Positions 4,401 to 30,395 of a stretch of DNA of 44,063 nt are shown here, one piece after another. The notes beneath the pieces were generated by a model that saw only the letters and a list, made by a program, of their open reading frames with translations, ran no database searches and was not told where the DNA came from. A program made the position numbers and the translations under genes. This DNA comes from a virus, in the IMG/VR virus record IMGVR_UViG_3300025112_000036, positions 1 through 44,063 of that record, one strand, 5' to 3'. Every line of letters starts with the position of its first letter. The first letter of the stretch is position 1.

Positions 4401-6101
4401 CTACCCTTTTGCATCTCCCCAGTTGTCCCCCTCTTCAATGTCGATCTCGACGGGCACACGCATGGGGAACGGGTTCTCCATGAGCTCCGTGATGCGACGC
4501 TTCGCTGGGATGGCGTAGTCGTCATCGTCAGGCACCTCGAAGATGAGCTCGTCGTGTACCTGCAGCAGCATCCGCACGCCCAGCTCTCGCAGCTCTTCGT
4601 CCGCCTCGCACCGCAGCATCGCCTCGTTGGTGATGTCTGCTGCCGAGCCCTGAATGCGTGCGTTGGGGGCTTGCCGCTCCGCCTGCTTCATCAGCCCACG
4701 CTCGGAGGACACGATGTCAGGCAGCCGTCGAGGATGGCCAATGAGGGTGTAGACCGCGAGTTCTTGTCGGCATTGATGCTTCGTGTCCTCGATGAACTCC
4801 CCGACGGCAGGGTAGATGTCGTTCAAGTAGTTCTTGATGAGCTTGTCGGCTTCCGGACACCAGTCGCTCGACTTGCCGTTCTTGAACGTCCGCTTCACGA
4901 TGGGCAGGCCAAGCTGCATCCCCAGCTTCAGCGCACCAATACCGTAGATGATGCCGAAGCCGGTGCTCTTGAGCTCCCCACGCTTTGCGGCCAGCAAGGC
5001 CTGCTCAGGAGTCGGATTGGCCGCGGCCTTGGCTGCCTTCACCTCGTCGTAGGTGAGCCCGGCAGGGATGCCCGGAACGCCTCGCTCGGACGCCAGCACG
5101 ACCGTCTGGCAATGAAGGTCCAGCCCCTTGTTGATGGCATCGATCATGCCCTGGTCACAGCTGAAATGGGCCATGATGCGCATCTCGAGCTGGCAGTTGT
5201 GAGACAGAAATCCTTCGCAGATGAAGGTCTTGGTGCTGGTCTGAATCGCCACCACCTCCCCGTCTTCGAGCCGCTCGATCTTGGTGACGCGAACTACGGG
5301 AGTGTGCGCCGACCATGTCCTCTTGCCATCCCACAAGATGTGGGCCTTTTCCAGCAATCGTGCAGGGCGGAACATTCCAATGGCCCGCAGACCTCCCTTG
5401 TTTCCGTAGAAGTCCAGCTGCTGCACATCATCCTTCTTTCGCAGACGACGTCGGACCTCCAGCTCCGGGAACTTTGTCAGGGAGGATTCGATCTGCCGCA
5501 AGCACGCATTCGGCCTCTGAGCCATGCTCACTTTTCCGCTTCTTGTGGCGCGGCCTTCCCCGTCGAGGATCCCCGAGAGGTAGCCTGCATCCCATCCCTG
5601 GGCGGTGTCCCATGGCTCTGCGAAGAACCCGATGCGGTCCCCCAGTTCGAGCTCGTCGGTGCGGACCCAGGAACGCCGCCGACGCTTCCATGTCTCTCCA
5701 GAGCCCCCAACTACCCACTGATGGTCGCCGGAGCAGATCAGCTCGGCTCCGTTGTCCATGGTGACCTTGAACCGCGGCTTGGTGACCCGCTTGCACCCCT
5801 CGACGACAGAGCTCTTCAGCTTTGCCCGCGAGAGCTTCTCATCGAAGCCGATGAGGCGATCCCCTTCCTGGACCTCACCGGCGGGGACCCATCGAAGGTC
5901 TTCCGTCAGCAGCCTCATCGCGGAGTCAACGCAGTAGTCCGCCACGATGAGGCGCATCGGGAAGTCGTCCGGCAGGTCCGGCCCTTCTACGTCCCGCAGG
6001 TGCTCCATGCACAGCATGGGATCGACATCGCCAAAGAGACCAGCCACGAAGAGCTGACGAATCCGCTTGCCCCACACCGGATCCTTGGCCGGGATGTTTT
6101 G
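4401..6101 (-). CDS. polA: DNA polymerase I family, C-terminal exon with motif A intein
   Basis: This is the polymerase domain downstream of the group I intron. Its first codon, CAA at 6099-6101, joins the upstream exon ...PNL to give PNLQNIP, the conserved family-A motif. Motif A is split by an intein: VADY is followed by the intein, and C-QLEMR resumes after it. Spliced motif A is DYCQLEMR, equivalent to DYSQIELR of E. coli Pol I. The O-helix (KRGELKSTGFGIIYG) keeps R, K and F at the 4-residue spacing of E. coli R754/K758/F762. Motif C is QVHDELIF near the end. The frame remains open to 6173, but that part lies in the intron. After all splicing the whole polymerase would be about 833 residues. 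Two Asp and one Glu needed for metal binding are present. Confidence 0.9.
   Translation of the reverse strand, partial: QNIPAKDPVWGKRIRQLFVAGLFGDVDPMLCMEHLRDVEGPDLPDDFPMRLIVADYCVDSAMRLLTEDLRWVPAGEVQEGDRLIGFDEKLSRAKLKSSVVEGCKRVTKPRFKVTMDNGAELICSGDHQWVVGGSGETWKRRRRSWVRTDELELGDRIGFFAEPWDTAQGWDAGYLSGILDGEGRATRSGKVSMAQRPNACLRQIESSLTKFPELEVRRRLRKKDDVQQLDFYGNKGGLRAIGMFRPARLLEKAHILWDGKRTWSAHTPVVRVTKIERLEDGEVVAIQTSTKTFICEGFLSHNCQLEMRIMAHFSCDQGMIDAINKGLDLHCQTVVLASERGVPGIPAGLTYDEVKAAKAAANPTPEQALLAAKRGELKSTGFGIIYGIGALKLGMQLGLPIVKRTFKNGKSSDWCPEADKLIKNYLNDIYPAVGEFIEDTKHQCRQELAVYTLIGHPRRLPDIVSSERGLMKQAERQAPNARIQGSAADITNEAMLRCEADEELRELGVRMLLQVHDELIFEVPDDDDYAIPAKRRITELMENPFPMRVPVEIDIEEGDNWGDAKG
5196..5933 (-). 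mobile_element. Contiguous intein in DNA polymerase motif A
   Basis: 246 residues between VADY and CQLEMR. It starts with Cys (CVDSAMRLL), has a splicing block B with the conserved His (CSGDHQW), and ends FICEGFLSHN just before the +1 Cys of the extein. A GYLSGILDGEG segment in the middle is a LAGLIDADG-type endonuclease motif; only one clear copy is visible, so the endonuclease may be reduced. Removing it restores DYCQLEMR. The insertion separates the two acidic residues of motif A, so the unspliced polymerase should be inactive. Confidence 0.92.
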
Positions 6102-7015
6102 CCTTGATGTTACGGACCGCCCGTTTCCGGCGGTCCTCTCTCGGTTTCCCGAGAGAGCAGACCATATCACCACGTCTTTTGACGTGCCCCGCGCTTCGGC
6201 CCCACTTAGGGCCTACTCGCTTGCGCGATGGTCGTTGGACCTTCACCACGTAGGTGTCTTGTACAGCAGCGCAGAAGGAGCAATCTTTCTGGCCATTGTC
6301 AAGATCTGAACAGCAATAGGCTTAGGCACAATCCAGACCTTGTTCCTCTCGGAAGCACGGCTGTTGTTCTTTGCCACTCGCCCAGCAGACGCAGTACCGA
6401 AGCGGTCACGGGCCCAGTCCAGGACGAAGTCCGGGTCAGAGCTCAGTTCTGGGCCCAGCGAGATGCTGACCCGCAGGCTTCCGCCATCGTTGCGGCGGAC
6501 AGTACATCCGTCGTCCAGGAACCACATTCCCAGCCCCAGGTCTGAGAGACCAGACAGTGCCTCAAAGCAGTCGAGCTGCTCATGGGCGTCAGTGAAGTCG
6601 GGGTGGACAAGCGAGGTCGCAGTCCAGATGGGCTTGGCATTGGCGTAGGTGCTGTCCTTCTTCCGGTTCCTCACATTGACTGAGCCGCGCAAAGAAGCAG
6701 GGAGCAGGTGCTCTTGCTTCCAGCGGACCCAGTCTTCGCAGATAGAGGACCAGATGATCTTGCTGTTCTTGCACTCCGGGTGCCGCCAAAAGTGTCCGTC
6801 GCCGAGACGGGCATTGGTGATGGCTTCCGAGAGATCTACACAGGTGCTTGGCTGCTGATTGCCCATTTCTTCACCCTCTAACAGGGTGTATATCCCTTGT
6901 GGGATGTTCATCCAAGCTCTTTTCGGCCCATCGCGCTTGCCGTTTCCAGCTACGCTGTGGGGGCTTGGCTTTAGGGGGTTCCAGCAGTTCACGGGGTTTT
7001 ACAACCTCCAGATCA
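6102..7015 (-). ncRNA. Group I self-splicing intron in the polymerase gene
   Basis: The 914-base insertion lies between codons CTT (Leu) and CAA (Gln) of the PNL|QNIP motif. The exon end CAACCTT pairs with GAGGTTG in the first 20 bases of the intron. This gives a 7-bp P1 whose last pair is the conserved U-G wobble at the 5' splice site. The last intron base is G. Near the 3' end are R-like (GTCCAACGACCATC) and S-like (GATATGGTC) elements whose GACCAT/ATGGTC arms form P7. Two P9-type hairpins with GAAA-type loops follow (CTCTCTCGG/CCGAGAGAG and GGACCGCC/GGGCGGTCC). A P4-like CTGCTGGAACCCCCTAAAGC lies near the 5' end. A LAGLIDADG endonuclease gene fills the middle. Confidence 0.9.
6243..6866 (-). 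CDS. LAGLIDADG homing endonuclease inside the group I intron
   Basis: 207 residues from the ATG at 6864-6866, which follows a GAGGGTGA Shine-Dalgarno-like run. The frame is open further upstream to 6992, but that part overlaps the intron core. Two half-motifs are seen: ARLGDGHFW near the N-terminus and GLGMWFLDDGC in the middle, as in the LAGLIDADG family with a WxxDDG second motif. The protein would cut intronless alleles of the polymerase gene and spread the intron. The stop at 6243-6245 lies immediately before the P7 element, so the gene fits between the 5' and 3' halves of the ribozyme core without breaking them. The frame appears intact. Confidence 0.85.
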   Translation of the reverse strand: MGNQQPSTCVDLSEAITNARLGDGHFWRHPECKNSKIIWSSICEDWVRWKQEHLLPASLRGSVNVRNRKKDSTYANAKPIWTATSLVHPDFTDAHEQLDCFEALSGLSDLGLGMWFLDDGCTVRRNDGGSLRVSISLGPELSSDPDFVLDWARDRFGTASAGRVAKNNSRASERNKVWIVPKPIAVQILTMARKIAPSALLYKTPTW

Positions 7016-7150
7016 AAGGTTGGGGCTGGCCGAGTTGTGGTGGACCAGGCCCTGCGCCACGTACGACGCGTCCTCTTCTACCGTCAGGTCCCAGACCTGA
7101 CGGGTTCCTACGGGCTTGATGGTCGCAATGCGGCCGGGAACAAGTCTCAT
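7016..7150 (-). CDS. Split-intein C fragment plus first six residues of the C-extein
   Basis: This exon starts with ATG at 7148-7150, overlapping the TGA of the upstream polymerase fragment (ATGA). It codes for a 39-residue IntC (starting MRLVPGRIATIKPV, with the VWDLTVEEDASYV strand and ending GLVHHN) followed by SASPNL, the start of the C-extein. The frame then runs into the group I intron and resumes at 6101 with QNIP. The IntC length and the terminal HHN plus Ser+1 match natural split inteins such as DnaE or gp41-type. AAGGAGG lies four bases upstream of the ATG. Splicing to the N half gives TWRLA-SASPNLQNIP, equivalent to TGRLSSxxPNLQNIP of family-A polymerases with no residue missing or extra. 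Confidence 0.92.
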
Positions 7151-8958
7151 TCTTCCTCCTTGGCGATTCGAAGAACCTCATCGCCCTCTGTGAGTTCGCT
7201 CAAGTGCTTCCAACCCGACGGGGTCAGGAAGCGGTGCTCCATCGTGCAGATGACGCTCTCCCCAGTAGCGAGAGTCACCTCGAACATCTCCTCCTCCCCC
7301 TTCGGGAAGCAGGCCAGAATCCTACGCTGACGAAGCTCGTGAGTCAGGATGGCCGTGGTGCTGTCCAGATGCTCAGGGAGATCCCGAATAGGGAATGTCC
7401 CTGCACTGGTCTCCAAGAGCGTTCCGCCATCCACGCAGGCCAGCCGCCAGGTGCGGGCTCCAATGGACTTCAGCTGAGTGTGGATGCGGCCCCGACGGTC
7501 GGCCCACTTGGGTAGCGCCTCCATGTAGGTGCCGTTCAGCTTGTCGTACTGCCGGAACCGAAGGACCAGCTCCGCCAGCTCGTTGCCCTTGCCTGCAAAG
7601 GTCTCGAGGGTGGCTTTGTCCGTGGAGGGCATCTTGATGCCGCTGGCACCCCCAGACGTCAGCTTTCTGGGCGGGTCGCCGAAGGGGTCGACCCACTCTC
7701 CGTTCCGGTCCTTGGTGAAGAAGACCTCTCGCAGCTGCTTGGGGCTGCCGACGTTGAACTCAAGGCTTCCAGTGACCTTCACGACCTTCCGCGCGACGTC
7801 CTGGAGGTACTTACGCATGTCGACGCTGTATGCGCGGGCACGCTCGGCATCGAAGGCGAAGCCCCGCCGCTCCATGTTCCAGAGGGTCCGGATGAAGGGG
7901 ATCCGCTTTTCCTCAGAGTGGTCGAAGAGGGTGAGGGGTTCCTCGCCCTCCATGACGCCCTCCGTGACCATCTCCATCTCGTCGTCGTCGAGCTCGTGCC
8001 GCAGCCAATCCACCAGAGTGTACGAGGCCCAGGCATCCAGCGAGGCGTAGTCGGACACCCGCTCTCGGAGCTCCTCGAGGGGGTCCCCATCCAGGGAGAG
8101 CTTCTCGAGCATCCGGTCCCATAGGAGCCAGTGGGCTTCCTCGATGAGCTTCTTGTCTTCCATGACGGAAGCCCAGGCAGGCCGCTCCTTGTAGTTAGGG
8201 AGCTCCGGGCCTCCGAGGAACTGCACGAAGTCAGAGACGTACCCCTGGCGGCCTGCGGTCTTAGAGGCAAGCCCCAGGCTTCGGGCCACCGCGAGGAGAG
8301 GGCGAGCCTTGAGGATGCAGCCTGCCTTGATGGCCAGGTCGACCTTCTTCAGCATTTTCATCAGGAGCGGGTCTTCTGACTCCACGATCTTCAAGCGGAT
8401 GCTCATGCGCAGGGCCCATGCCTGGGCTGCCTCCACCTCGCCCTCGTAGTCGTGGAGCTCGAGAATGTCATGGACCTCGCACATGGTCCGAACCTCGTCG
8501 TCCACCTTGCCGATGTCCCCGAACACCTGCTTGAACGGCGTCATCCGTAGTCCCAGGTGATCTGCTGCACAGCCCTTCAGGCCATGGCTCATTCGGTTCT
8601 CGTCGTACAGGAAGTCCTGGTCCATCGAGTCCGGGATCGGGCCGCGGATGATGATGCCGTGGTTCGCCGCCATGTGCATGTCGTACTTGGCGTTGGTCAT
8701 CCGCTTTTCGACCTTGGGATCGGTCAGGAGAGGGACGAACACGGGCAGCAGCCGCAGCGGGGCACAGATGCGTGCGCCCGTGTTTGCTACGGAGAAGAAC
8801 CGGATGCGGTCGCGCACCAGGTCAAGCCCAGTTGTCTCAGTGTCGAAACCGATGCCGGTCTCGTAGGCGGTCTCGTAGAAGTACTCGGCCCATCCCTCCG
8901 CCTCGTCCATGTCGTGGACGTAGGTGGGGAAGGGCGTCCTCACAATGGAAAAGGCCAT
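7147..8958 (-). CDS. polA: DNA polymerase I family, N-terminal part fused to split-intein N fragment
   Basis: 603 residues. Residues 1-507 are the polymerase N-part. A DEDD 3'-5' exonuclease has Exo I GFDTETTGLD (D39, E41), Exo II TNAKYDMHM and Exo III VSDYASLDAW. The thumb and the start of the palm follow, up to RIHTQLKSIGARTWRLA. Residues 508-603 are a 96-residue IntN beginning CVDGGTLLE, with block B ICTMEHRF, and stopping at EEE-TGA. The protein is inactive as a polymerase until trans-spliced with the C part. GGAG lies six bases upstream of the start ATG. A perfect 10-bp hairpin and a CATAAG motif lie in the 82-base gap before it. No 5'-3' exonuclease domain is present, as in other phage family-A polymerases. 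Confidence 0.92.
   Translation of the reverse strand: MAFSIVRTPFPTYVHDMDEAEGWAEYFYETAYETGIGFDTETTGLDLVRDRIRFFSVANTGARICAPLRLLPVFVPLLTDPKVEKRMTNAKYDMHMAANHGIIIRGPIPDSMDQDFLYDENRMSHGLKGCAADHLGLRMTPFKQVFGDIGKVDDEVRTMCEVHDILELHDYEGEVEAAQAWALRMSIRLKIVESEDPLLMKMLKKVDLAIKAGCILKARPLLAVARSLGLASKTAGRQGYVSDFVQFLGGPELPNYKERPAWASVMEDKKLIEEAHWLLWDRMLEKLSLDGDPLEELRERVSDYASLDAWASYTLVDWLRHELDDDEMEMVTEGVMEGEEPLTLFDHSEEKRIPFIRTLWNMERRGFAFDAERARAYSVDMRKYLQDVARKVVKVTGSLEFNVGSPKQLREVFFTKDRNGEWVDPFGDPPRKLTSGGASGIKMPSTDKATLETFAGKGNELAELVLRFRQYDKLNGTYMEALPKWADRRGRIHTQLKSIGARTWRLACVDGGTLLETSAGTFPIRDLPEHLDSTTAILTHELRQRRILACFPKGEEEMFEVTLATGESVICTMEHRFLTPSGWKHLSELTEGDEVLRIAKEEE
7150..7437 (-). mobile_element. Split-intein N fragment (IntN)
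   Basis: This is the 96-codon C-terminal part of the polymerase N-fragment. It has a Cys1 start (CVDGGTLLETSAG), block B TMEHRFLTPSGW, and ends LRIAKEEE. Size and end point match the N halves of known natural split inteins (about 90-100 residues). No endonuclease domain is present. Confidence 0.9.
7155..7161 (-). promoter_or_regulatory. Ribosome binding site for the split-intein C fragment
   Basis: AAGGAGG is placed four bases before the IntC ATG and lies within the last codons of IntN (Lys-Glu-Glu). It supports true re-initiation at the C fragment rather than a sequencing frameshift in a single intein. Confidence 0.85.
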
Positions 8959-11339: not shown

Positions 11340-14024
11340 CTACGGACGCAGGATGGAAGTCTTCCGCCGCTTCCGCCGCTTCCCGGTCTTGCCGAAGCTG
11401 CCCTTCCGCTTCTTAACCTCTGCCTTGGCCTTGGCCTTCACGTCGCTCTCCTCCTCGTAGTCCTTTGATTCCTTCAGGAACGAATCCACGTTCACGCTGT
11501 TCTGAAGCAGCGTGAAATCGCAGCCGGGCCAGGCGTTGACCACGAAGGGGTTCAGGACAGAGTCCCGGACCCCTGGGAAGGTCAGCATCAGCTTGGGCTT
11601 CCCGGTGGAGTGGTTCTTGGCCTTGAAGATGCGGGCCAACATGTCGCAGTCCTGGCCGATGGCATCTGCGAAGGCGACCTCATCCGTGTCGTCTCCCTTG
11701 GTCTTGCCGGCAGACCTGTTGGCCTGGGTGGTCCCGATGATGGGGATGTCCAGGTACTGGGCTGCGTCCTTGATGTCGCTCGAGATGTTGGAGATGGTCT
11801 TCCACCCACGGTCCCGAAGTCCAGTGCGGCCGTCCCGCATCAGATAGAAGCCGTCGATCAGCAGCAGGTCTGCCTTGAACTTCTCGGCCTCTGCCACCAG
11901 CGTGTCGACAGTCGCCCCCTTCTTGCCCCCCATCTCACGGTCGGAGATGAAGCTCATCGCAGCCCGCTGGCCGTCTTCCTGAGAATCCTTCTCCCAGTCC
12001 TCCAGGCTCTCCATGAGCTCGAAGAAGTCCTCACGCTCATCGTCGTTGAGGCCCGCTGTCTTCAGCTTCTCGTAGTCAATGCCGGTGATGAGGGAGGCGA
12101 CCCGTCGGATCATCTGCTTCTTCGACATCTCCTTCGAGTAGCAGAGCACCCGACGGTTGTGCATCGAGTAGGCATGGACGCAGCAGTGGAGGGCCAGCCA
12201 GGTGTTGTGGACCGCAAAGCCCTCAACGACGAAGTTGGGATCCTGGCCGTCCTGGATGCAGATGTCGTAGCAGTCATGGCGGCCGACGGGGGTGATCTCC
12301 CTGATTCGATCCCACAGCACGTCTTGCTCTGCCACGATGCGAAGGGGCTCAGAGTCCCACTTGTTCGCCATCTTCATCAGAAGGGCTCGGCTGATCTTGC
12401 CCGAGCGTCGGAACAGCTTGCTCCGATCCAGGTAGGACTGGCCCATCTTTGGCCACTCCTTCCCTTCCTTCTCCCGCAGGATGAGCTGCATGAGTCCTTC
12501 GGAGTAGGGGACCCCGTCGACATTCCGCTTCGTGAACCGCTCCTCAGTCAGCTGGAAGAAGGCTTCCCGCTTGTGGGCGCACTCCACGTAGCCGGCCAGC
12601 TGGGCACACAGCTTCTGGTGCTGATCGAGCCCGGTCACCGTCACGATCCACTGACCCTTGCCAGCGTTCTCCGACCAGTAGGGGCTGCCCACTACTCCCA
12701 GACGGGACAACAAGTGCTTCACGCCATCGGCGAGTACCTTGCTTGCCGTGCACCAGGACACGGTGTACGGCTTCTTGGCCCAGACGTTGCCGTCGGTGTC
12801 CAAGAGTCCTGCCAGGAAAGCGCAGATAGCCTCACGTCCTGCGGTCAGGATGCCCTCGGGAACGTCCTTGTCCTCCGCCTTCTTGCCATGCATCCCAGCC
12901 TTTCGCAGGTAGGTCAGCAGCGGGTTGTCCGGGCGGCCAGGAGCCGTGATCCGGTACTCGCCCGGACGGTGTGCCTCGCGCATCTCACACTCGAACCGGC
13001 CAACCCGATGAGACAGCATGTCCACGACGTCCTGATCGTGGTTCGAGAACTGGACCCCGTTCCGCGCGTAGTTCCCGTCCCCAACCAGGGTGCCCAGGAT
13101 CCAAGCCAGCTCCGTGCTGACGCCAGTCCCGTCCCATGCTGGAGTGTTCCTCGTAGTGGCGACCCAGTCCCCCACCTCGAGATCGCAGATGCGCTCGAAG
13201 GAGCCCTCGAAGGAGCCCTCAGGAACCATGAAGTAGTGCTTGTCGCCTGTCTCCACGGTGTAGCCAGACTCTGTCACGACCCGGACGCAGTCCTTCTCAC
13301 CGCTGTAGACCCTCTTGGCCTTGGCCCACCGCAGCTTGCCAGTGGCCTCCGTGTAGGAAGGGACTTCGCACTCCTCAGGGAGTTCCTCGATGGGGACCAG
13401 CTTTCCGCTCCTGGTCATGATCTTCTGCCCGGCCACAACGCACTTCATCATCTTCGGGCGCGCATAGAAGACGAGCCACTCCTGGTCCTGCATCCCACCA
13501 GTGGACCTGTTCATTGGGCCCCAAGGCCACGGGATGCCCGTGATGCCTCCTGACTGCTCCATGGCCTCATACTCAGCCCGCAAGTCAGCAGCAGCAGACG
13601 AGATGAGCGTCTGGCTACTACGACTTGAAGAGACGCTGAGGTCTCGCAAGGCAGGCAGGAGACCCTGAAGGACAAGGTCGGGAGACTCCCCGCTGTCCAG
13701 GAGGTCATCCATCTCTGCTGTGATCTCTCGGATGCCCGCAGACACGTTGTTGTCCACGACCTCATCGATGAGCGCGGCGAGGGTGTCCCGGCTGGGGCAG
13801 AAGTCGAACTCCGGGAAAGTCCTCCGCACCCGCTCGTAGCTGGGAACCACTCCTCCAGGCTCGGTCTTGGTTCCAGGCTTGAGGACCTCAGCATGGAGCC
13901 AGGCGAAGAGCTCCCTTGCTTCTTCGCCCTGGAAGAGCTGGGAGGTGACGCCGCGGTGGCGGACCTCTTGAAACTGCCCGCGATCGATGATGTTGCTCAG
14001 CAGCTGCAGCTCTACATTGGCCAT
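11340..14024 (-). CDS. dnaB: DnaB-type replicative helicase carrying an intein
   Basis: 894 residues as encoded, about 481 after intein removal. The N-terminal helical domain (VELQLLSNIIDRGQF...) matches DnaB. The RecA-like core has Walker B LLLIDGFYLM, a SKEMSKKQMIRRV region like the DnaB H2 segment, and GTTQANRSAGK, the sensor/H3 region. The Walker A loop is interrupted by the intein. Joined, it reads ARPKMMKT, lacking the usual glycines but keeping Lys-Thr, a form found in some phage helicases. The C-terminus is very basic (KKRKGSFGKTGKRRKRRK). GAGGAGG lies nine bases upstream of the start. It unwinds DNA at the fork and works with the primase and polymerase encoded next to it. Confidence 0.9.
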   Translation of the reverse strand: MANVELQLLSNIIDRGQFQEVRHRGVTSQLFQGEEARELFAWLHAEVLKPGTKTEPGGVVPSYERVRRTFPEFDFCPSRDTLAALIDEVVDNNVSAGIREITAEMDDLLDSGESPDLVLQGLLPALRDLSVSSSRSSQTLISSAAADLRAEYEAMEQSGGITGIPWPWGPMNRSTGGMQDQEWLVFYARPKMMKCVVAGQKIMTRSGKLVPIEELPEECEVPSYTEATGKLRWAKAKRVYSGEKDCVRVVTESGYTVETGDKHYFMVPEGSFEGSFERICDLEVGDWVATTRNTPAWDGTGVSTELAWILGTLVGDGNYARNGVQFSNHDQDVVDMLSHRVGRFECEMREAHRPGEYRITAPGRPDNPLLTYLRKAGMHGKKAEDKDVPEGILTAGREAICAFLAGLLDTDGNVWAKKPYTVSWCTASKVLADGVKHLLSRLGVVGSPYWSENAGKGQWIVTVTGLDQHQKLCAQLAGYVECAHKREAFFQLTEERFTKRNVDGVPYSEGLMQLILREKEGKEWPKMGQSYLDRSKLFRRSGKISRALLMKMANKWDSEPLRIVAEQDVLWDRIREITPVGRHDCYDICIQDGQDPNFVVEGFAVHNTWLALHCCVHAYSMHNRRVLCYSKEMSKKQMIRRVASLITGIDYEKLKTAGLNDDEREDFFELMESLEDWEKDSQEDGQRAAMSFISDREMGGKKGATVDTLVAEAEKFKADLLLIDGFYLMRDGRTGLRDRGWKTISNISSDIKDAAQYLDIPIIGTTQANRSAGKTKGDDTDEVAFADAIGQDCDMLARIFKAKNHSTGKPKLMLTFPGVRDSVLNPFVVNAWPGCDFTLLQNSVNVDSFLKESKDYEEESDVKAKAKAEVKKRKGSFGKTGKRRKRRKTSILRP
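12204..13442 (-). mobile_element. Intein with LAGLIDADG endonuclease in the helicase P-loop
   Basis: 413 residues (195-607 of the precursor). It starts with Cys (CVVAGQKIMTRSGK), has block B ETGDKHYF, and ends VVEGFAVHN before the +1 Thr. Two endonuclease motifs, AWILGTLVGDGN and AFLAGLLDTDGN, are complete, so the homing endonuclease could be active. Insertion in the DnaB P-loop is a site used repeatedly by inteins. Confidence 0.93.
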
Positions 14025-15151: not shown

Positions 15152-15907
15152 CTACTCCGGGAAGCCGGTCTTGAAGACCGCCTTGTTGTGCAGGTTCAGA
15201 AGACCCAGGGCCCACTTCAGGTCCTGGAGGGTCTTGTAGCTGTTGCCGCGCTTCCGACTCACCAGCCCCTGGTCCCCCTTCCGCAGGAGGAAGGCCGGAT
15301 GAAGGATGGCCAGCATCGGGTACCGCACAGGGTCCTCAGTGACGGGGCTTGGGACGCTTATGTCATAGATGTGACCCCGCTTTTGCGTGATCTGCACCGA
15401 TGAACCCAAGAGGACTGCCGCAGCGATCTTCCCCACCCCCACGATGAGGAGAGGGTCGATGGCGTAGATGGTGCGGTGCAGTCGGTCACGGCACGCCTTC
15501 TTCTCCGCAGGGGAAGGGTCCCGGTTCTCAGGAGGGCGACAGAGGACGACGTTGGTCCAGAAGATGTGCTCGTCCAGGTACTCCCGCAGGTCCTCGAAGT
15601 ACTCGTCGTCTTCCTCGTCATTCCCATTGCCGTCGTAGGCCTTGATCTCCTCCATACGGTCCGACGGAGGCCACGCGTGAGCGAAGAGCTCCATCAGCAG
15701 CCGACCGGACTGCCCCAGGAAGGGGGCACCCTCCGCATCCTCTTCCTCCCCGGGAGCCTCTGCAATGACCATGATGGAGGCGGAGCTGCTACCAGACCCG
15801 AAGACCACCTGAGACCTGCTCTCGCAGAGCTTCTCGCAGATCCTGCAGTCCTCGTAGGTTGACGAAAGCTCCACCAGGGCCTTGAGGCCACAGATGTGCG
15901 AGGTCAT
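15152..15907 (-). CDS. Uracil-DNA glycosylase, family 4 (Fe-S type)
   Basis: 251 residues. It removes uracil from DNA, starting base-excision repair. Family motifs are in order: CRIC (C21, C24), IAEAPGEEED with GAPFLGQSGRLL, TNVVLCRPPENRDPSPAE (C123), C139, and HPAFLLRKG with the catalytic-region His. The four Cys fit the 4Fe-4S cluster ligands of family 4. An acidic insertion (NGNDEEDDEYFED) lies between motifs. It is coupled by ATGA to the downstream gene. Confidence 0.9.
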   Translation of the reverse strand: MTSHICGLKALVELSSTYEDCRICEKLCESRSQVVFGSGSSSASIMVIAEAPGEEEDAEGAPFLGQSGRLLMELFAHAWPPSDRMEEIKAYDGNGNDEEDDEYFEDLREYLDEHIFWTNVVLCRPPENRDPSPAEKKACRDRLHRTIYAIDPLLIVGVGKIAAAVLLGSSVQITQKRGHIYDISVPSPVTEDPVRYPMLAILHPAFLLRKGDQGLVSRKRGNSYKTLQDLKWALGLLNLHNKAVFKTGFPE

Positions 15908-20777: not shown

Positions 20778-22861
20778 TGTCCCTCAACATCATGTCCCCC
20801 TCGAGCGAGGGAAACAGGTTCAACCCTCGGCAGACAACCAGCTTCATGGGCGGCCGGGGCTTCGGCGTCCGCTACCCGTCGCCGTTCTTCGATGTCGCTC
20901 AGCAGTTCCTCCCAGAGAACGTGCACCAGCTGCACCTCTGGTGCCGCTACTACTTCCTGACGAGCCCGGTCATCAACGTCGCCTGCCAGAAGATGGCGGA
21001 GTACCCGGTCACCCCGATCGTCTGGGAGACTGAGGACGAGAAGCTCCTCCACCTCTACCAGGGTGTCGAGCGTCAGCTGGCCCTCCGACAGTTCCAGGTC
21101 TCCGTCGGCCTGGACTACTTCGTCTACGGCAACGCCTTCGCCAGCGTCTACTTCCAGCTCGAGAAGTACATCGTCTGTCGGAAGTGCAAGGCCAGGTACC
21201 GGGCCTCCAAGAACCGCAGCCTCTACAAGTGGCGGGGCTCTCGCTTCTACCTCAACTGCGCGGGCTGCAGCTATGAGGGCTGGGCCGACCAGGCTGATGT
21301 CTACCCTCGGAACATCCGGGGAGCTCAGCTCATCCGCTGGAACCCTGAGAACATTGAGATCGCCCACAACGAGATCACGGGGAAGAGCCGGTACTACTAC
21401 CGCCTGCCCCGGAAGATCGTGAACAGTGTGAAGCTGGGAGACCGGGAGACCATCGAGTCCCTGCCCTGGCAGTTCCTCGAGGCCGCTCGGAAGGGCCGTG
21501 CCCTCCTCTTCAGCGAGGACAACTTCTACCACCTGAAGCGGCCAACGATCGCCCAGAAGGACCAGGGCTGGGGAAGTCCCCTCATCTACCCGCTCCTGAA
21601 GGACGCCTTCTACCTGCAGATCATGAAGAAGGCGCAGGAGTCCCTCCTGCTCGAACACGTCGTCCCGCTGCGGATGATCTTCCCTGGCCCCTCGACAGGC
21701 GGCAACGATGGGCCCTTCGGTTCATACAACCTGTCGAACTGGAAGGCCAAGATCGACAGCGAGCTGAACATCTGGAAGAGGGACCACAACTACATCCCCA
21801 TCCTCCCGGTGAACGTCGGCTTCCAGCAGGTGGGCGGCACTGCCAAGGCCCTCATCCTCCACCAGGAGTTCCGCATCCACGCCGAGCAGATGCTCGCAGG
21901 TGCGGGCATCCCTGTAGAGTTCGTCTTCGGCGGACTCCAGTGGTCGAGCTCCAACACCTCGCTGCGGGCGCTGGAGAACACGTTCCTGGGCTACAACCAA
22001 GAGCGCTTCGGTCTGCTCGAGTTCTGCATGAAGCGGGTGGCCTCACACATGGCGTGGCCGAAGGTCCCCTTCCGCTTCGACCGCTTCCGCATGGCGGACG
22101 ATCTGCAGCGGGCGATGTTCTACTTCCAGCTCAACCAGGCGCAGAAGATCAGCGATCGTCGCCTGCTCGAGGAGCTCGGTGAGGACCTGGAGAAGGAGAC
22201 GGGGCGTATGGACGGCGAGTTGGCCAAACAGCTCAACGTGCAGCGGAAGATGCAGTTCGCCAGTGCCGACGTGCAGGGAGCTGCCGCCCTTCGAACCTCC
22301 CGGTATCAGGCCAAGGCTACGGCTCTCCAGACGAAGGCCCAGATGGAAGCCCAGATGGAAGCCCAGATGGGCGGAGAGCAGCCGCAGGAAGGCCAAGACC
22401 CCACAGGGGCCGGGGCGCAGCAGCCGGGTCAGCCGGGCCAAGAAGGAGCAGGAGTGCCCCAGGAAGCCGCTGCAGCTCAGGGCGGAGACCAGGTGCAGCA
22501 GGTACCTGGAATGCCTGAGGGGGCCACGGCCTACGACGAGAACGCCCAGGGCCCGAATGAGCAGGCCGCCCCCACGCCCATGGCAGGGATGCAGAGCCCG
22601 CTCCAGCCTGGAATGGGTGGTGTGGACCTTCGCTACGTCGCCCAGCGGGCAGCCGCCTACATGCGTACGGTGAAGCAGGAGTCCGGCGCACAGGCGATGA
22701 CGCAGGAGATGGAGAAGATGATGAGCTCCAACCCCACGTTGTATAAGCTCGTCGTCCAACTCATGAATGACGGCGGAGCCACTCGCAACCCGACCGACCC
22801 CTCCAAGCCAATCTCTGCCAAGCCTCAGCAGGCAGATTCCAGCCGCATGCCTACGGGATGA
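20777..22861 (+). CDS. Portal protein with inserted zinc ribbon
   Basis: 694 residues. Portal proteins form the dodecameric ring through which DNA enters the head. Seen here are an N-terminal PVINVACQKMAEYPVTPIVW helix region, a wing/stem region (LRMIFPGPSTGG, LNIWKRDHNYIPILPVNVGFQQVGG), and the WSSSNTSLRALENTFLGYNQERFGLLEF clip/crown pattern of portal families. An unusual insertion has CRKC (C134, C137) and CAGC (C161, C164), a zinc-ribbon fold. The C-terminal 180 residues are Gln/Pro/Gly-rich with a QMEA tandem repeat. The start ATG is in a TGATG overlap. Family assignment rests on pattern recognition. Confidence 0.75.
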   Translation: MSLNIMSPSSEGNRFNPRQTTSFMGGRGFGVRYPSPFFDVAQQFLPENVHQLHLWCRYYFLTSPVINVACQKMAEYPVTPIVWETEDEKLLHLYQGVERQLALRQFQVSVGLDYFVYGNAFASVYFQLEKYIVCRKCKARYRASKNRSLYKWRGSRFYLNCAGCSYEGWADQADVYPRNIRGAQLIRWNPENIEIAHNEITGKSRYYYRLPRKIVNSVKLGDRETIESLPWQFLEAARKGRALLFSEDNFYHLKRPTIAQKDQGWGSPLIYPLLKDAFYLQIMKKAQESLLLEHVVPLRMIFPGPSTGGNDGPFGSYNLSNWKAKIDSELNIWKRDHNYIPILPVNVGFQQVGGTAKALILHQEFRIHAEQMLAGAGIPVEFVFGGLQWSSSNTSLRALENTFLGYNQERFGLLEFCMKRVASHMAWPKVPFRFDRFRMADDLQRAMFYFQLNQAQKISDRRLLEELGEDLEKETGRMDGELAKQLNVQRKMQFASADVQGAAALRTSRYQAKATALQTKAQMEAQMEAQMGGEQPQEGQDPTGAGAQQPGQPGQEGAGVPQEAAAAQGGDQVQQVPGMPEGATAYDENAQGPNEQAAPTPMAGMQSPLQPGMGGVDLRYVAQRAAAYMRTVKQESGAQAMTQEMEKMMSSNPTLYKLVVQLMNDGGATRNPTDPSKPISAKPQQADSSRMPTG
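22337..22372 (+). repeat. 12-bp tandem repeat in the portal C-terminal tail
   Basis: GCCCAGATGGAA is present in two exact copies and a third with two changes at its end. It codes for repeating QMEA in the low-complexity tail of the portal protein. Confidence 0.8.
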
Positions 22862-24119: not shown

Positions 24120-27100
24120 ATGCCCAATCTGAACCCAGAAGCCGCCTTCGAGAGCATGAAGACCCAGGTGGAGGCTGCGATAAAGGGCCAGTTCCCCTTC
24201 GAGGGCAAGAAGAGGCGGCTCGAGCTCATTTCACTGGCCTTCGACGAGAGGGCCTCAGAGCCTACGGCAGCCCACCACGTGGACAACGTCCACGCCCAGT
24301 ACAACGCCAAGACCAAGGGACGGACCTGGGGGGTGCCGCTACGAGGTCAGCTGCGCCTGGTGGACCTGGAGACCAGGAAGACAGTCGAAGAGACCACACT
24401 CACCCTCGCACTCCTTCCGAAGCTCACGCGCCGGTACTCCTACGTCATCGAGGGCCAGGAGCGACAGCACGACAGCGTCTTCCGGTCCATGCCCCGGCCC
24501 TACCACCGGATCGCCAACAACGGGGAGATCCAGGCGGAGTGGAACCTGGCTCGAGGGCTTGGGTTCAAGCTGATCTACTACCCGGTGAAGGGCCACATCC
24601 GGATGAAGCTGGGGGAGACCCACGTTCCCGTGGGCTCCGTCCTCAAAGTCATGGGCGTCGGCGATGCCACCATGGAGCGGTACTTCGGGCGGGTGGTGTA
24701 CGAAGCCTGCAAGAAGGACATGAAGCCAGTGGACCTGGACAAGATGTTCAAGTCCCTCAGGCTTCGTAAGCAAGAAGACAGGGGGACGATCGCCCCGGAT
24801 GAGAAGAAGCGGCGCATTCTTGCGTACTTCTCGGAGCAGACAGAGGTCTGGCCCGATGCCATGGAGTCCGCGTTCGGGAAGCCGTTCTCCACGGTCACGT
24901 CTGAGGGGCTTCTCCTCTCTTCGAAGCGTCTCCTCGCCATCCAGCATGGGCGGAACAAGGAGAACCCCACCATCCAGGAGAAGCCGGACGACCGTCAGGC
25001 CCTGTCTTCGAAGTACCTGACCAGCACCGAGGACTTCATCGTAGAGGCCATCGCAAAGAAGACGGCGGAGCTGAAGCGTCGAGTCCTGCAGCGGATCGAC
25101 AGGGACGATCGAGGGATCGCCAACATCTTCAACAACCACGACTTCAACAAGGTCATCAACGGGGTCTTCGAGCACGCACAGCGCCCGGACCAGACGAACC
25201 CGCTGCAGATGCTGTCTGGCCATGTCCGCACCACCATCCGCGGCTCCGAGTACGGCGGTGTGGGCGGGAGTCAGACCAACGTCAACAAGGACAAGCAGAT
25301 CAACCCCACGCACCTCGGCTTCCTGGATACCATCCAGACGCCGGAGTCGAGCGACACGGGCATCGCCCTGCATCTCCCGCTCGGGGTGCAGTCCGAGCGG
25401 GCCCCAGACCGGAAGGGCCGTGCCTCCTCGGGCCACCTGATCAAGACCAGGGTCTACGACGTCAAGGCCAAGGAGTGGGTGATGGCGACGCCGGGCCTGC
25501 TCGAGCGTGCCAACGTCGCCTTCCCCGACCAGGTCAAGTGGTCCGGGAAGATCCCGGTTCCCATCGCCCAAGAAGTCATCTGCTACGACTCCGAGCGGCA
25601 ACAGTCCCGGATGCCGTGGAACAAGGTCCAGTACATCCTTCCCTCGTCGAAGGCCCTCTTCTCGTTCAGCGCGAACCTCATCCCCTTCCTGCAGAACAAC
25701 AACGGCAACCGAGGGATGATGGCCGCCAAGCAGCAGGAGCAGGCAGTCTCTCTCAAGGACCGGGAAGCACCCCTGGTCCAGACCCAGACAGATGAGGGAG
25801 GGACGTTCGAAGAGACCGTCGGCAGCTTCTCTGCGCACTACGCTCCCGTTGCTGGAACGGTGGTGAAGGTCCAGAAGGACATGATCCACATCCGGGGAGT
25901 CGGCCGGAAGGTGACCAAGGTCCCCATCTACAAGGACTTCCCCCTCAACGGGGCGAAGACCTTCGTCACGGCACACCCGGTGGTGAAGGCTGGAGACGCG
26001 GTCAAGAAGGGCCAGCTCATCGCCGACACCAACTACACCCGGGACGGGAAGTTGGCGATGGGGAAGAACCTCCGCGTCGCCTACATGCCCTACAAGGGGC
26101 TAAACTTCGAAGACGGGGTGGTCATCTCCGAGACCGCGGCCAAGAAGCTGACCTCGGACCACATGCACCAGGAGTCCGTGACCATCTACCCAGGGATGCT
26201 GGGAGGTACGGAGGCAGGCGATCTGGGGCAGTGGGTGCGCTACGCGATCCCCGAGCGCACCACCATGGGGAAGATGTCCAAGCTGGACAAGAGCGGCGTC
26301 ATCAAGGAGGGAACTCCCGTAGAGAGCGGGGACGTCATGGTGGCGGTCCTCTCCCCTTCCCAGGATGCCAAGGAGGACGAGCTCCACTCTCGTCTCCACA
26401 GGTCCCTGGTGAAGCCCTACCGGGACAAGTCTCTGGTCTGGGACCACAGCTACCCGGGCAAGGTCATCAAGGTCATCCAGCACAACAACACGGTCACCGT
26501 GCACGTCCGGACGGAAGAGCCGATGGTGGTCGGCGACAAGCTGTGCGGACGCCACGGGAACAAGGGCATCGTCTCGCGCATCGTCCCCGACCACAAGATG
26601 CCGCACGATGCCGAGGACGCCCCGGTCCACATCCTGCTCAACCCTGCAGGTGTGCCGTCTCGGATGAATGTCGGACAGGTCCTCGAGACGGCAGCCTCCA
26701 AGATCGCCAAGAAGACGGGCAAGCCCTACATCATCGAGAACTTCACCCCCGGTGTGGACTACTCGGCCAAGATCAAGATGGACCTGGCCAAGCACGGCCT
26801 GTCCGACACGGAAGTGCTCTACGACCCTGAGACCCGGCGTCCCCTGGGGAAGATTCTCACAGGTGACCAGTACATCCTGAAGCTCCACCACAGCGTCGAC
26901 AAGAAGCAGACGGCCCGCTCCTACGGGACCTACACCGGAGCTGGAGACGCGCCCTCTGGGTCAGGCATCCCTGGTGGCGGCCAGAAGATGGACCTGCTGA
27001 CGACCTACTCGATGCTCTCCCACGGAGCGAAGCACAACCTCCGGGAGGCACAGTCGTTCAAAAGCGATGGAGAACAGGAGCGAGTCTGGGATGCCGTGAT

Positions 27101-30100
27101 GCTGGGGCACCCGCTGCCGGCACCTGAGTCCGCAGCGGGTATGCGGAACTTCATGGCGTACCTCCGAGTCCTCGGAGTGAACGCGGAGAAGAAGGGGGAC
27201 CAGTACGTCCTCATGCCGCTCACGGACAAGCAGACCAAGAAGGTCTCCAACGGGCTCATCGAGAATCCGGAGAAGGCCCTCTACGCCAAGGGTGCCCTGA
27301 CTATCGACGAGGCCAAGGGACTCTTCGAGCCGCGCATCACCGGTGGCCGGGACGGCCCCTACTGGTCCCACATCGATCTCGCAGAAAGGATGCCGGGCCC
27401 CCTCTACGAAAAGGCCATCCAGTCCGTCCTCAACATCAAGAAGTCGGAGTATGCGGAGCTCACCAGCGACAAGCTCGTAGACGGGAAGTCCGGGTTCAAG
27501 ACCATCGTCGAGAGGCTGGAAGCCATCGATGTCGACAAGGACCTCGCCAAAGCCAAGGCCTCCCTCTCATCGCTCCGTGGCAGTCCTCTCAACAAGGCCT
27601 ACCGCCGGGTGCGCTACCTCGAGGCCCTCAAGAAGAACGGGATCTCCCCGGTGGACGCGTACACCAACAAGACCTTGCCCGTCATTCCTCCCAAGATGCG
27701 AAAGGTCTCCATCGGGCTGGACGGGAAGCAGATCCTGGACGACATGAATGGTCTCTACCTCCAGGTCGGCTACGCGAATGGGGCCTTGGCCAGGTCACAC
27801 GCATCGAATCCTGAAGACGAAAAGCAGAAGGAGCGAGCTCACCTCTACACCGCCATCAAGGCGCTGCGCATCACGGGGATGAGCATCGGCAAGGGCAAGG
27901 CAGCCCGGCACCACGCGGGAATGATGGAGCGCCTCACTGGCAAGATCCAGGGTGAAGGAGCTCCGAAGCACTCGTTCCCGCAGAAGGGGGTGCTTGGTCG
28001 CCGACAGGACCTGTCTGGGCGGTCGACCATCGTCCCCGAGCCGGACATGGGCCTGGACGAGGTGGGCATCCCCATCCCCATCGCCCTCGAGATGTACAAG
28101 CCCTTCGTGGTTCGGGAGCTCCGCCGACAGGGAGTGACCCCCGCACGTGGCCTGAAGATGGTCATGGAGAAGGACGAGAAGGCCCTGCGTGCACTGGAGG
28201 AGGTGGTCAAGGATCATCCCGTCCTCCTCAAGCGTGACCCGGCCCTCCACAAGTTCTCCGCCATGGCGTTCCGCCCTCGGCTCATTCATGGGAAGGCCAT
28301 TGCTATCCACCCTCTGGCCTGCGGCGGCTTCAACGCGGACTTCGACGGGGATGCCATGGCACTCTTTGTCCCGGTCGGCGATGAGGCCATCGACGAGGCC
28401 AGAGGAATGGTCCCGTCCAAGAACCTTTTCTCACCCACTCACTTCGGACTGATGTCCACCCCTGGCCAGGGTTCGCTGCTCGGGCTGTACCAGGCCTCGA
28501 AGTGGGGGGCGGCGGCGGCAGTCCCCAACAAGGTGACCCGGAAGCAGGTCATCAAGCTGATGGAGGATGGGAAGCTCAAGCCGGACAACGTCGTTGCCGT
28601 CGACGGGAAGCTCACGACTCCTGGTCGGCTGGCCTTGGCAGAGACACTTCCCCCGGAGCTCAGGAACCACGAGAAGCTGCTGTACGACAAGCAGTTCCGC
28701 CTGGACAAGGGGGGCATGAAAGAGGTCATGACCGAGGCAGCTCGGAAAGATGAGAAGCACTTCCCCAAGACGGTCAACGACTGGAAGGACGTCGGGAACC
28801 GGCTGGCGTACCTGAGCGGTAGCTCCATCAGCATCAACGACTTCCACGACGGACACAAGTTCCGCGACCACATCCTCGCCCCCTACAAGCGGGAAGAGGC
28901 CGCCGTCCTGCGCTCGAAGGCCTCCAAGAAGGTGAAGGACAAGAAGGTCATCGAGATCTACGGCCGCGCGCAGGAGGAGCTCGAGACCGTCGGGAAGAAG
29001 CGCTACGCCGCCATCGGCGAGAACAAGATGTTCGAGTGGACGAGCTCGGGAGCTCGAGGCAACTGGGGGCAGTTCTCCCAGCTGGTCTTCGGCCCTATGC
29101 TGGTCCTGGATGCCGAGAAGAAGACGGTCGCTGTCCCGCTCACCAAGTCCTACGGTGAGGGCCTTTCCCTCTCGGAGTACTGGGCCTCGATGCACGGAGC
29201 TCGCAAGGGCATCCTCGACCGCGTCGCCGGTACTCAGGAGCCCGGTGCCCTGACGAAGGACATCATCAACACCGTCATCGACTACAAGATCTCCAACAAG
29301 GATTGCGGAGACACCTCAGGGACTCAGATGAGCCCTCGAGACCTTGATGTCGTCGGTCGGTTCCTCGCAGGACAAGTCACCCTGAAGGCAGGTGCGACCT
29401 TCAAGGCAGGAACTGCTCTGGACACCCGCATCCTGACCCGCATCCGCAACGCGGGGATCATGCAGATCCCCGTCCGCTCCCCTCTGCACTGCAAGATGCA
29501 AACTGGCATCTGCGCGATGTGCTACGGCCAGAACCAGAACGGGAAGCTTCACCGTGCGGGTGTCAACATCGGCACCATCGCCGGCCAGTCTCTCGGCGAG
29601 CCAGTCACTCAGCTCACCATGGAAACATTCCACAGTGGAGGAGTCGCCGGCGGCAAGGACGTTGTCGGAGCCTTCGACCGAGTGAAGCAGCTCTTCTTCG
29701 TGCCAGACAAGCTCACCAACGCTGCCACTCTGGCCACTGTCGGGGGGCGCATTGAGAGTGCCAGCAAGGACGCGCGAGGCGGGCACTCTGTCTTCATCAA
29801 GGGGAAGGAGCACCGGGTCATCACTGGTGACCTGCTCCCGAGCATCCGGGTCGGAGCAATGGTGTCGAAGGGAGATGCTCTCTCTACGGGGCCGATCAAC
29901 CCCCACCATCTCCTGCAGCAGACGAACAGCATGCCGCAGGTCCGGAACTACCTCACCGGGGAGCTCGACCTGGCGTACAACGGGGACAAGCCTTCAGGTT
30001 CGGTCCGTCGCCGGAACATCGAGACGGTCGTCCGGGCGATGACCAACAGGACCATGATCACCGATGCTCCCCCGGAGTCCGGCTTCCTGCGAGGGCAGCG

Positions 30101-30395
30101 GGCGTACCTTTCCAGGGTCGAGGGCTATAATGCCCAGGCACTCACTGAGGGCCGTCAGGGGATCAAGCACGCACCCCAGCTGAAGTCCATGACTCAGATC
30201 CCGGTTACCGGGACTGAAGACTGGATGGGCCGATTGAACTACCGTGGGCTCAAGAACACCTTTGAAGAGGGGGCCGCCCAGGGCTGGGCCTCCGACATCC
30301 ACGGGGACCATCCCATTCCTGGTCTGATGCACGGCGCAGAGTTTGGCATCCGCCCTTACAAACCCAAGAAGTCCTACAGTAGGAAGAAGAAATGA
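24120..30395 (+). CDS. Single-chain fused beta-beta' DNA-directed RNA polymerase
   Basis: 2091 residues, joining bacterial-type beta and beta' cores in one chain. In the beta part: IQTPESSDTGIAL (about 405, compare [10 protein letters not shown]), IPFLQNNNGNRGMMA (about 523, compare FLEHDDANRALMG), FEDGVVIS (about 663) and GRHGNKGIVSRIVP (about 810) with the NPAGVPSRMNVGQ motif. In the beta' part: the catalytic NADFDGDAM (D1407, D1409, D1411), bridge helix EYWASMHGARKGIL through ALTKDI (about 1686-1717), zinc Cys C1729, C1791, C1798, C1801, and trigger loop NIGTIAGQSLGEPVTQLTMETFHSGG (about 1816-1841). It is shorter than E. coli beta plus beta' (about 2750). The beta' N-terminal zinc ribbon was not seen and the rifampicin-pocket segment is cut down. 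No alpha, omega or sigma gene is in the window. It is coupled by ATGA to the next virion gene. Confidence 0.95.
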   Translation: MPNLNPEAAFESMKTQVEAAIKGQFPFEGKKRRLELISLAFDERASEPTAAHHVDNVHAQYNAKTKGRTWGVPLRGQLRLVDLETRKTVEETTLTLALLPKLTRRYSYVIEGQERQHDSVFRSMPRPYHRIANNGEIQAEWNLARGLGFKLIYYPVKGHIRMKLGETHVPVGSVLKVMGVGDATMERYFGRVVYEACKKDMKPVDLDKMFKSLRLRKQEDRGTIAPDEKKRRILAYFSEQTEVWPDAMESAFGKPFSTVTSEGLLLSSKRLLAIQHGRNKENPTIQEKPDDRQALSSKYLTSTEDFIVEAIAKKTAELKRRVLQRIDRDDRGIANIFNNHDFNKVINGVFEHAQRPDQTNPLQMLSGHVRTTIRGSEYGGVGGSQTNVNKDKQINPTHLGFLDTIQTPESSDTGIALHLPLGVQSERAPDRKGRASSGHLIKTRVYDVKAKEWVMATPGLLERANVAFPDQVKWSGKIPVPIAQEVICYDSERQQSRMPWNKVQYILPSSKALFSFSANLIPFLQNNNGNRGMMAAKQQEQAVSLKDREAPLVQTQTDEGGTFEETVGSFSAHYAPVAGTVVKVQKDMIHIRGVGRKVTKVPIYKDFPLNGAKTFVTAHPVVKAGDAVKKGQLIADTNYTRDGKLAMGKNLRVAYMPYKGLNFEDGVVISETAAKKLTSDHMHQESVTIYPGMLGGTEAGDLGQWVRYAIPERTTMGKMSKLDKSGVIKEGTPVESGDVMVAVLSPSQDAKEDELHSRLHRSLVKPYRDKSLVWDHSYPGKVIKVIQHNNTVTVHVRTEEPMVVGDKLCGRHGNKGIVSRIVPDHKMPHDAEDAPVHILLNPAGVPSRMNVGQVLETAASKIAKKTGKPYIIENFTPGVDYSAKIKMDLAKHGLSDTEVLYDPETRRPLGKILTGDQYILKLHHSVDKKQTARSYGTYTGAGDAPSGSGIPGGGQKMDLLTTYSMLSHGAKHNLREAQSFKSDGEQERVWDAVMLGHPLPAPESAAGMRNFMAYLRVLGVNAEKKGDQYVLMPLTDKQTKKVSNGLIENPEKALYAKGALTIDEAKGLFEPRITGGRDGPYWSHIDLAERMPGPLYEKAIQSVLNIKKSEYAELTSDKLVDGKSGFKTIVERLEAIDVDKDLAKAKASLSSLRGSPLNKAYRRVRYLEALKKNGISPVDAYTNKTLPVIPPKMRKVSIGLDGKQILDDMNGLYLQVGYANGALARSHASNPEDEKQKERAHLYTAIKALRITGMSIGKGKAARHHAGMMERLTGKIQGEGAPKHSFPQKGVLGRRQDLSGRSTIVPEPDMGLDEVGIPIPIALEMYKPFVVRELRRQGVTPARGLKMVMEKDEKALRALEEVVKDHPVLLKRDPALHKFSAMAFRPRLIHGKAIAIHPLACGGFNADFDGDAMALFVPVGDEAIDEARGMVPSKNLFSPTHFGLMSTPGQGSLLGLYQASKWGAAAAVPNKVTRKQVIKLMEDGKLKPDNVVAVDGKLTTPGRLALAETLPPELRNHEKLLYDKQFRLDKGGMKEVMTEAARKDEKHFPKTVNDWKDVGNRLAYLSGSSISINDFHDGHKFRDHILAPYKREEAAVLRSKASKKVKDKKVIEIYGRAQEELETVGKKRYAAIGENKMFEWTSSGARGNWGQFSQLVFGPMLVLDAEKKTVAVPLTKSYGEGLSLSEYWASMHGARKGILDRVAGTQEPGALTKDIINTVIDYKISNKDCGDTSGTQMSPRDLDVVGRFLAGQVTLKAGATFKAGTALDTRILTRIRNAGIMQIPVRSPLHCKMQTGICAMCYGQNQNGKLHRAGVNIGTIAGQSLGEPVTQLTMETFHSGGVAGGKDVVGAFDRVKQLFFVPDKLTNAATLATVGGRIESASKDARGGHSVFIKGKEHRVITGDLLPSIRVGAMVSKGDALSTGPINPHHLLQQTNSMPQVRNYLTGELDLAYNGDKPSGSVRRRNIETVVRAMTNRTMITDAPPESGFLRGQRAYLSRVEGYNAQALTEGRQGIKHAPQLKSMTQIPVTGTEDWMGRLNYRGLKNTFEEGAAQGWASDIHGDHPIPGLMHGAEFGIRPYKPKKSYSRKKK

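Follow-up and report, generated by a model that had tools for sequence, protein, structure and literature searches.

The DNA polymerase gene polA of an uncultivated phage, contained in a 44,063-nucleotide (nt) IMG/VR virus record (IMGVR_UViG_3300025112_000036; the whole record is called the window, and all coordinates follow its numbering), is interrupted in its most conserved 62 codons by what we identify as a split intein, a group I intron and a contiguous intein. On the sequence evidence, these are very probably three independent selfish elements that accumulated there. The gene lies on the minus strand, with its start at 8958 and its end at 4401. Along it, the split intein (96 + 39 amino acids, aa) is followed after six codons by the 914-nt intron, and after another 56 codons by the 246-aa contiguous intein. 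An earlier note on this DNA had placed three different kinds of element in one active-site stretch at 5196-7437, separated by 6 and 56 codons (62 in total). Rebuilding the gene from the sequence gave exactly the same spacings and exactly the same span, from the start of the split intein to the end of the second intein, and confirmed the anatomy to the base.

Removal of all three elements yields an 833-aa family-A DNA polymerase with exonuclease and polymerase domains, a Pfam DNA_pol_A match and complete motifs A (VADYCQLEMR), B (R-x3-K-x3-F-x3-YG) and C (HDE). This product aligns end to end with the uninterrupted polymerase of locus L004, a single open reading frame (ORF), at 48% identity over 840 columns. 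The alignment with uninterrupted relatives is undisturbed at the junctions, and the insertion points correspond to RLS/S, PNL/Q and DY/x of those relatives (slashes mark insertion points); in the window itself the first intein sits at R-L-A/S-A-S-P-N. The parts of the gene, in coding order, are as follows.

7438-8958, minus strand: PolA N-extein, 507 aa with the 3'-5' exonuclease domain and the start of the polymerase domain, ending ...GARTWRLA (ORF; Pfam DNA_pol_A and DNA_pol_A_exo1)
7150-7437, minus strand: N half of the split intein (IntN), 96 aa, with Cys1 and block B TMEH; stop codon TGA at 7149-7147 (Pfam Intein_splicing)
7147-7161, minus strand: Shine-Dalgarno sequence AAGGAGG (7161-7155) and ATGA stop/start overlap (7150-7147) between the two intein ORFs
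within 7140-7170: recorded sequence at the split junction, GAAGAATGAGA
7034-7150, minus strand: C half of the split intein (IntC), 39 aa, MRLVPG...GLVHHN (Pfam Intein_splicing, E 1.7e-4, under the curated cut-off)
7016-7033, minus strand: SASPNL exon of six codons, separating the split intein from the intron; the terminal 7 nt of this exon, CAACCUU, form a P1 strand
6102-7015, minus strand: putative group I intron, 914 nt, starting UGA and ending G (sub-threshold RF00028 matches, fold, covariation)
6243-6911, minus strand: LAGLIDADG_2-like ORF inside the intron, 222 aa from the Met at 6911 (a later Met is also possible), with its stop codon in the 3' P6 region
5934-6101, minus strand: exon of 56 codons, QNIPAKDP...LIVADY, reaching motif A (aligned with L004 and other relatives)
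5196-5933, minus strand: contiguous intein, 246 aa, VADY/C...SHN/CQLEMR, with one LAGLIDADG-like motif, AGYLSGILDGEG
4404-5195, minus strand: PolA C-extein, 264 aa, with motifs B and C (HDE) (Pfam DNA_pol_A, 7.4e-52)

Evidence for the three elements

The first element has the hallmarks of a split intein: separate ORFs that part at the endonuclease/split position, Cys1, the block B His (TMEH) and HHN/S, although its split state hinges on one base. The Pfam Intein_splicing matches of IntN (E 1.2e-7 to 2.4e-6) are, like that of IntC, under the curated cut-off. The joined halves are 41% identical to the contiguous PolA intein of Microcystis phage Mvi-JY20, and IntC is up to 61-69% identical to the C-terminal parts of other inteins at the RLS/S site. 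Profile searches matched the window inteins to the solved inteins gp41-1 and DnaB.

For the insertion at PNL/Q, several lines of evidence point to a group I intron that would be capable of self-splicing. The exon sequence CAACCUU pairs with intron GAGGUUG (7008-7002) to form a P1 helix of 7 base pairs with a terminal U.G at the splice site, the last intron nucleotide is G, and the first intron codon is an in-frame UGA. P1 and P3-P9, as well as P7.1 and P7.2, can be drawn in the intron fold, and P7 (GACCA pairing with UGGUC) shows a compensatory change. The P7.1 and P7.2 stems suggest subgroup IA, to which the intron presumably belongs. Two collinear sub-threshold matches to Rfam RF00028, of 15 bits each, lie at 6840-6986 and 6140-6168. 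Because the Rfam gathering threshold missed the window intron, we used covariation with two introns found by BLAST, those of Desulfovibrio phage ProddE and phage ctDrO704, whose 3' cores are 74-79% identical to that of the window. Within this core, 10 of 36 pairs were changed on both sides (shuffled mean 4.2), a value reached in none of 500 shuffles. The ProddE intron, which passes Rfam with 53 bits, is annotated as a DNA polymerase intron and sits at motif B rather than at the window's position; that of ctDrO704 lies directly upstream of an ORF annotated as major capsid protein. The window intron is thus, judged by its core sequence, a member of a lineage present in other phage genes. A fold model of the endonuclease encoded in the intron had a predicted local distance difference test (pLDDT) score of 36 and was uninformative.

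The contiguous intein at motif A contains the Hint splicing blocks, Cys1 and HN/C. Its Pfam Intein_splicing matches (E 3.5e-5 to 1.2e-4) are under the cut-off, and a low-confidence fold model (pLDDT 56) that matches inteins in the PDB is taken as support only. One LAGLIDADG-like motif is common to this intein, the motif-A inteins of L139 and L030, and the TerL inteins; a Pfam endonuclease search of the window intein gave no match. It is 51% identical to the L139 intein and 30% identical to that of L030. Since the L139 and window inteins are 51% identical while their host polymerases, which fall in separate supported clades, are only 33-35% identical, the motif-A intein has moved horizontally, and this pattern is the one left by homing.

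Its relatives form a LAGLIDADG intein family, with members 28-51% identical to the window or L139 intein, each inserted after a Tyr and beginning with Cys1. The L139 and L030 inteins occupy the same motif-A site, the terminase intein of mycobacteriophages LRRHood, Mangeria and their kin interrupts a different host gene, and the PolA intein of plasmid pM018 lies at another PolA position. The last of these (L161, 944-3568; Mycobacterium intracellulare plasmid pM018) is in a gene annotated as DNA polymerase, with the intein at NY/C, and is not named an intein in the table shown. Protein-based scans of viral contigs returned no close relatives of either window intein.

The same sites in other polymerases

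About 130 comparison loci (designated by L-numbers) were examined overall. A DNA pattern search for inteins ending HN/[SC]xxPNLQN retrieved 40 viral loci with an intein that ends at the RLS/S site. Most of these have an endonuclease-sized insert exactly at the position of the window's split, an insert absent from Mvi-JY20 and from the window itself. At the RLS/S site the intein of L037 is fractured and split, and an ORF that by eye is GIY-YIG-like lies between its N and C halves; L067 has either an overlapping split intein or a homopolymer indel. The motif-A pattern retrieved four loci (L030-L033), to which L139 adds a fifth, and L127 has an intein at the N/L position, the same position as the intron of phage SPO1. 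Two inteins in one polA gene were seen in L054, L055, L064 and L139, but none of the loci combined all three kinds of element.

Several further features of these genes were recorded. L139 (2851-6726) has one contiguous intein before TGRLSS and another at motif A, and L148 also has a PolA intein before TGRLSS. The PolA inteins of L026 (4603-5643), L027 (6167-6772) and L029 (3-299) are overprinted in another frame by a homing-endonuclease-like ORF, Vsr/DUF559-like or HNH by eye, which recalls the hidden HNH of PMC11855218. In L143 and L144 the PolA frame is lost about 80 codons past motif A and picks up again some 250-270 nt further on; Rfam gave no match, and the interruption is possibly a small intron.

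A tree of 66 polymerases placed the window in a group of 15 with 99/99 support, and the other 14, its nearest polymerases, lack all three elements. L139 falls in a different supported clade, where its neighbours are without its motif-A intein. The earlier note had suggested surveying family-A polymerases of related phages for the elements; the survey found the sites to be recurrent, but the closest polymerases free of all three.

The three sites rank at conservation percentiles of 96.5, 99.3 and 96.8, and random junction triples are rarely as conserved (p = 7e-5). Under uniform placement, three sites would seldom fall within 62 codons (p = 0.016), but when drawn from the 10% most conserved junctions they do so with p = 0.057. 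Conserved sites are already known to attract such elements, as described in PMC2814812. Because conservation attracts these elements, most of their proximity is explained, and the clustering is unremarkable once the preference for conserved sites is allowed for.

Probable production of the enzyme and competing explanations

The elements would have arrived separately. The split intein probably descends from the endonuclease-bearing inteins common at the RLS/S site through loss of the endonuclease and a subsequent split at its former position, and the motif-A intein belongs to the LAGLIDADG family, whose members move between PolA and terminase genes. As the intron opens with an in-frame UGA, RNA splicing must precede full translation of the C half. 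The intron, with its P1, core helices and splice sites in place, would first excise itself from the transcript. Ribosomes would then finish the ORF of N-extein and IntN and, presumably by coupling across the ATGA overlap downstream of the Shine-Dalgarno sequence, restart on IntC and the remainder. Trans ligation of the two chains by the split intein and cis excision of the motif-A intein, both of which have their catalytic residues, would finally leave an ordinary 833-aa polymerase. The earlier note had RNA, trans and cis protein splicing occur in succession; three steps do follow from the anatomy, but the two protein-splicing reactions need no order.

Several points weigh against this account, the main caveat being that the split or contiguous state of the first intein rests on a single base. 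The Rfam scan did not find the window intron at the gathering threshold, the intron ORF matches Pfam LAGLIDADG_2 under the cut-off (E 5e-4), and no relatives of this endonuclease turned up in the viral contigs, phages or genome contigs searched. We infer the splicing of all three elements from their sequences, and another polymerase may lie beyond the record, since the 44-kb record may be incomplete.

The single base matters because one added A (GAAGAA-A-TGAGA) joins the halves in frame (...AKEEE-MRLVPG...), giving a length within about two residues of the contiguous Mvi-JY20 mini-intein. The first intein could then be one contiguous mini-intein, its apparent split the result of a recent frameshift or of a one-base indel in the recorded sequence, and two cis protein-splicing steps and one RNA step would be needed; the apparently overlapping split of L067 could likewise stem from an indel, at a stretch of five G. 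We consider this unlikely, as the longest homopolymer at the window junction is 2, a full Shine-Dalgarno sequence closely precedes the ATGA overlap, and the same type of junction recurs in the window at 22858/22861 and 30392/30395. Moreover, the break lies at the classic intein split position, and in L037 this PolA site holds an intein that is clearly fractured and split. Programmed -1 frameshifting was rejected, since a slippery heptamer is absent from the junction.

Of the two explanations for the stack offered by the earlier note, the build-up of selfish elements at conserved sites has good support: the sites are used repeatedly, the elements are sporadically distributed, the closest clade has its sites empty, and the motif-A intein is more similar than its hosts are. 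The other was a benefit from the stack, which would time or gate the activation of the polymerase in infected cells and be kept for that reason. A need for three processing steps at a single active site would indeed delay activity, and on-switch ideas for introns in phage polymerases exist (PMC11878797). Nevertheless, we found no positive evidence and no linked regulator, mobile elements favour the same sites in unrelated phages, and the absence of every element from all 14 closest polymerases argues against a conserved function, which makes timing very improbable. Even less probable is a decaying polA whose function is supplied elsewhere: although the record could be incomplete and three interruptions would burden a gene heavily, every motif of the exonuclease and the polymerase is intact, and the polA exons show no stop or frameshift apart from the split. 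In addition, GC content at third codon positions is higher in the exons (0.81-0.85) than in the inserted elements (0.70-0.77), and synteny is preserved. The earlier note would have been undermined by a second intact polymerase gene or by chimeric assembly. This record, which may be a fragment, contains a single polA; a weak phrog_17 match at 15152-15907 (minus strand) was rejected as a second DNA polymerase because it is a uracil-DNA glycosylase superfamily protein. All 24 relatives that were checked retain the gene order DnaB-primase-g9041-PolA-RecA, save for undetected genes or contig ends; because this flanking order is preserved, and given the GC content, we rejected an assembly chimera at the polA locus.

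One further use of the arrangement can be imagined, which we regard as improbable. Because the first intron codon is UGA, unspliced mRNA still encodes IntC and six residues, and this 45-aa IntC-SASPNL, were it to trans-splice with the N half, could cap it as a 513-aa exonuclease-only protein, while spliced mRNA would give the 833-aa polymerase. If so, the balance between exonuclease and polymerase would be set by how efficiently the intron splices, a process that responds to GTP and to translation.

Related systems and significance

The available text of two papers (PMC2814812, PMC11878797) describes group I introns in the family-A polymerases of Bacillus phage SPO1 and the Bastillevirinae, as in the window, with two or three introns in some genes; as far as that text goes, inteins in the same gene are unreported and the endonucleases are mostly HNH, in contrast to the LAGLIDADG_2-like ORF of the window. 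The SPO1 intron, between Asn675 and Leu676 (E. coli numbering; PMC2814812), is one codon from that of the window. Host genes broken inside an intein into two ORFs are likewise known from fractured genes with split inteins (Dassa 2009, as cited in PMC10343443). L037 has an endonuclease-like ORF between its halves, whereas the window ORFs overlap by 4 nt with nothing between them. The PolA of Mvi-JY20 (XAI95532.1; L024, 1973-5338), annotated as hypothetical protein, has an endonuclease-free mini-intein one codon from the window's site, but this 133-aa intein is contiguous and the gene lacks both the intron and the motif-A intein. We know of no split intein in the ribonucleotide reductase genes of SPbeta. 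These genes, for a different enzyme, contain intron and intein sequences (Lazarevic 1998, as cited in PMC6293099). No published triple stack was found, which is weak evidence as most subscription literature lay outside the search.

Elsewhere in the window, the DnaB helicase gene (11340-14024, minus strand) also has an intein with a LAGLIDADG_3 endonuclease, which brings the phage to at least four self-splicing elements. On the plus strand, 24120-30395 encodes an RNA polymerase of 2091 aa whose beta and beta' parts are fused into a single chain (Pfam Rpb2_6 1e-62, Rpb1_2 1e-27; NADFDGD near residue 1405), which is strongly similar to bacterial RNA polymerase and unusual in a phage.

Each kind of element is known and each site is a recurrent target; no other gene that combines all three was found among the loci examined. 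At one essential active site, RNA splicing would act in series with protein splicing both in trans and in cis. The RLS/S site of phage PolA emerges as a heavily used and largely unannotated intein target, and the tight ATGA arrangement, provided it is real, illustrates a way for a split intein to remain efficient inside one operon. In other phages the same PolA sites are occupied by inteins with an endonuclease, by mini-inteins or by fractured split inteins, or are empty, and such intermediates let one ask how these stacks form.

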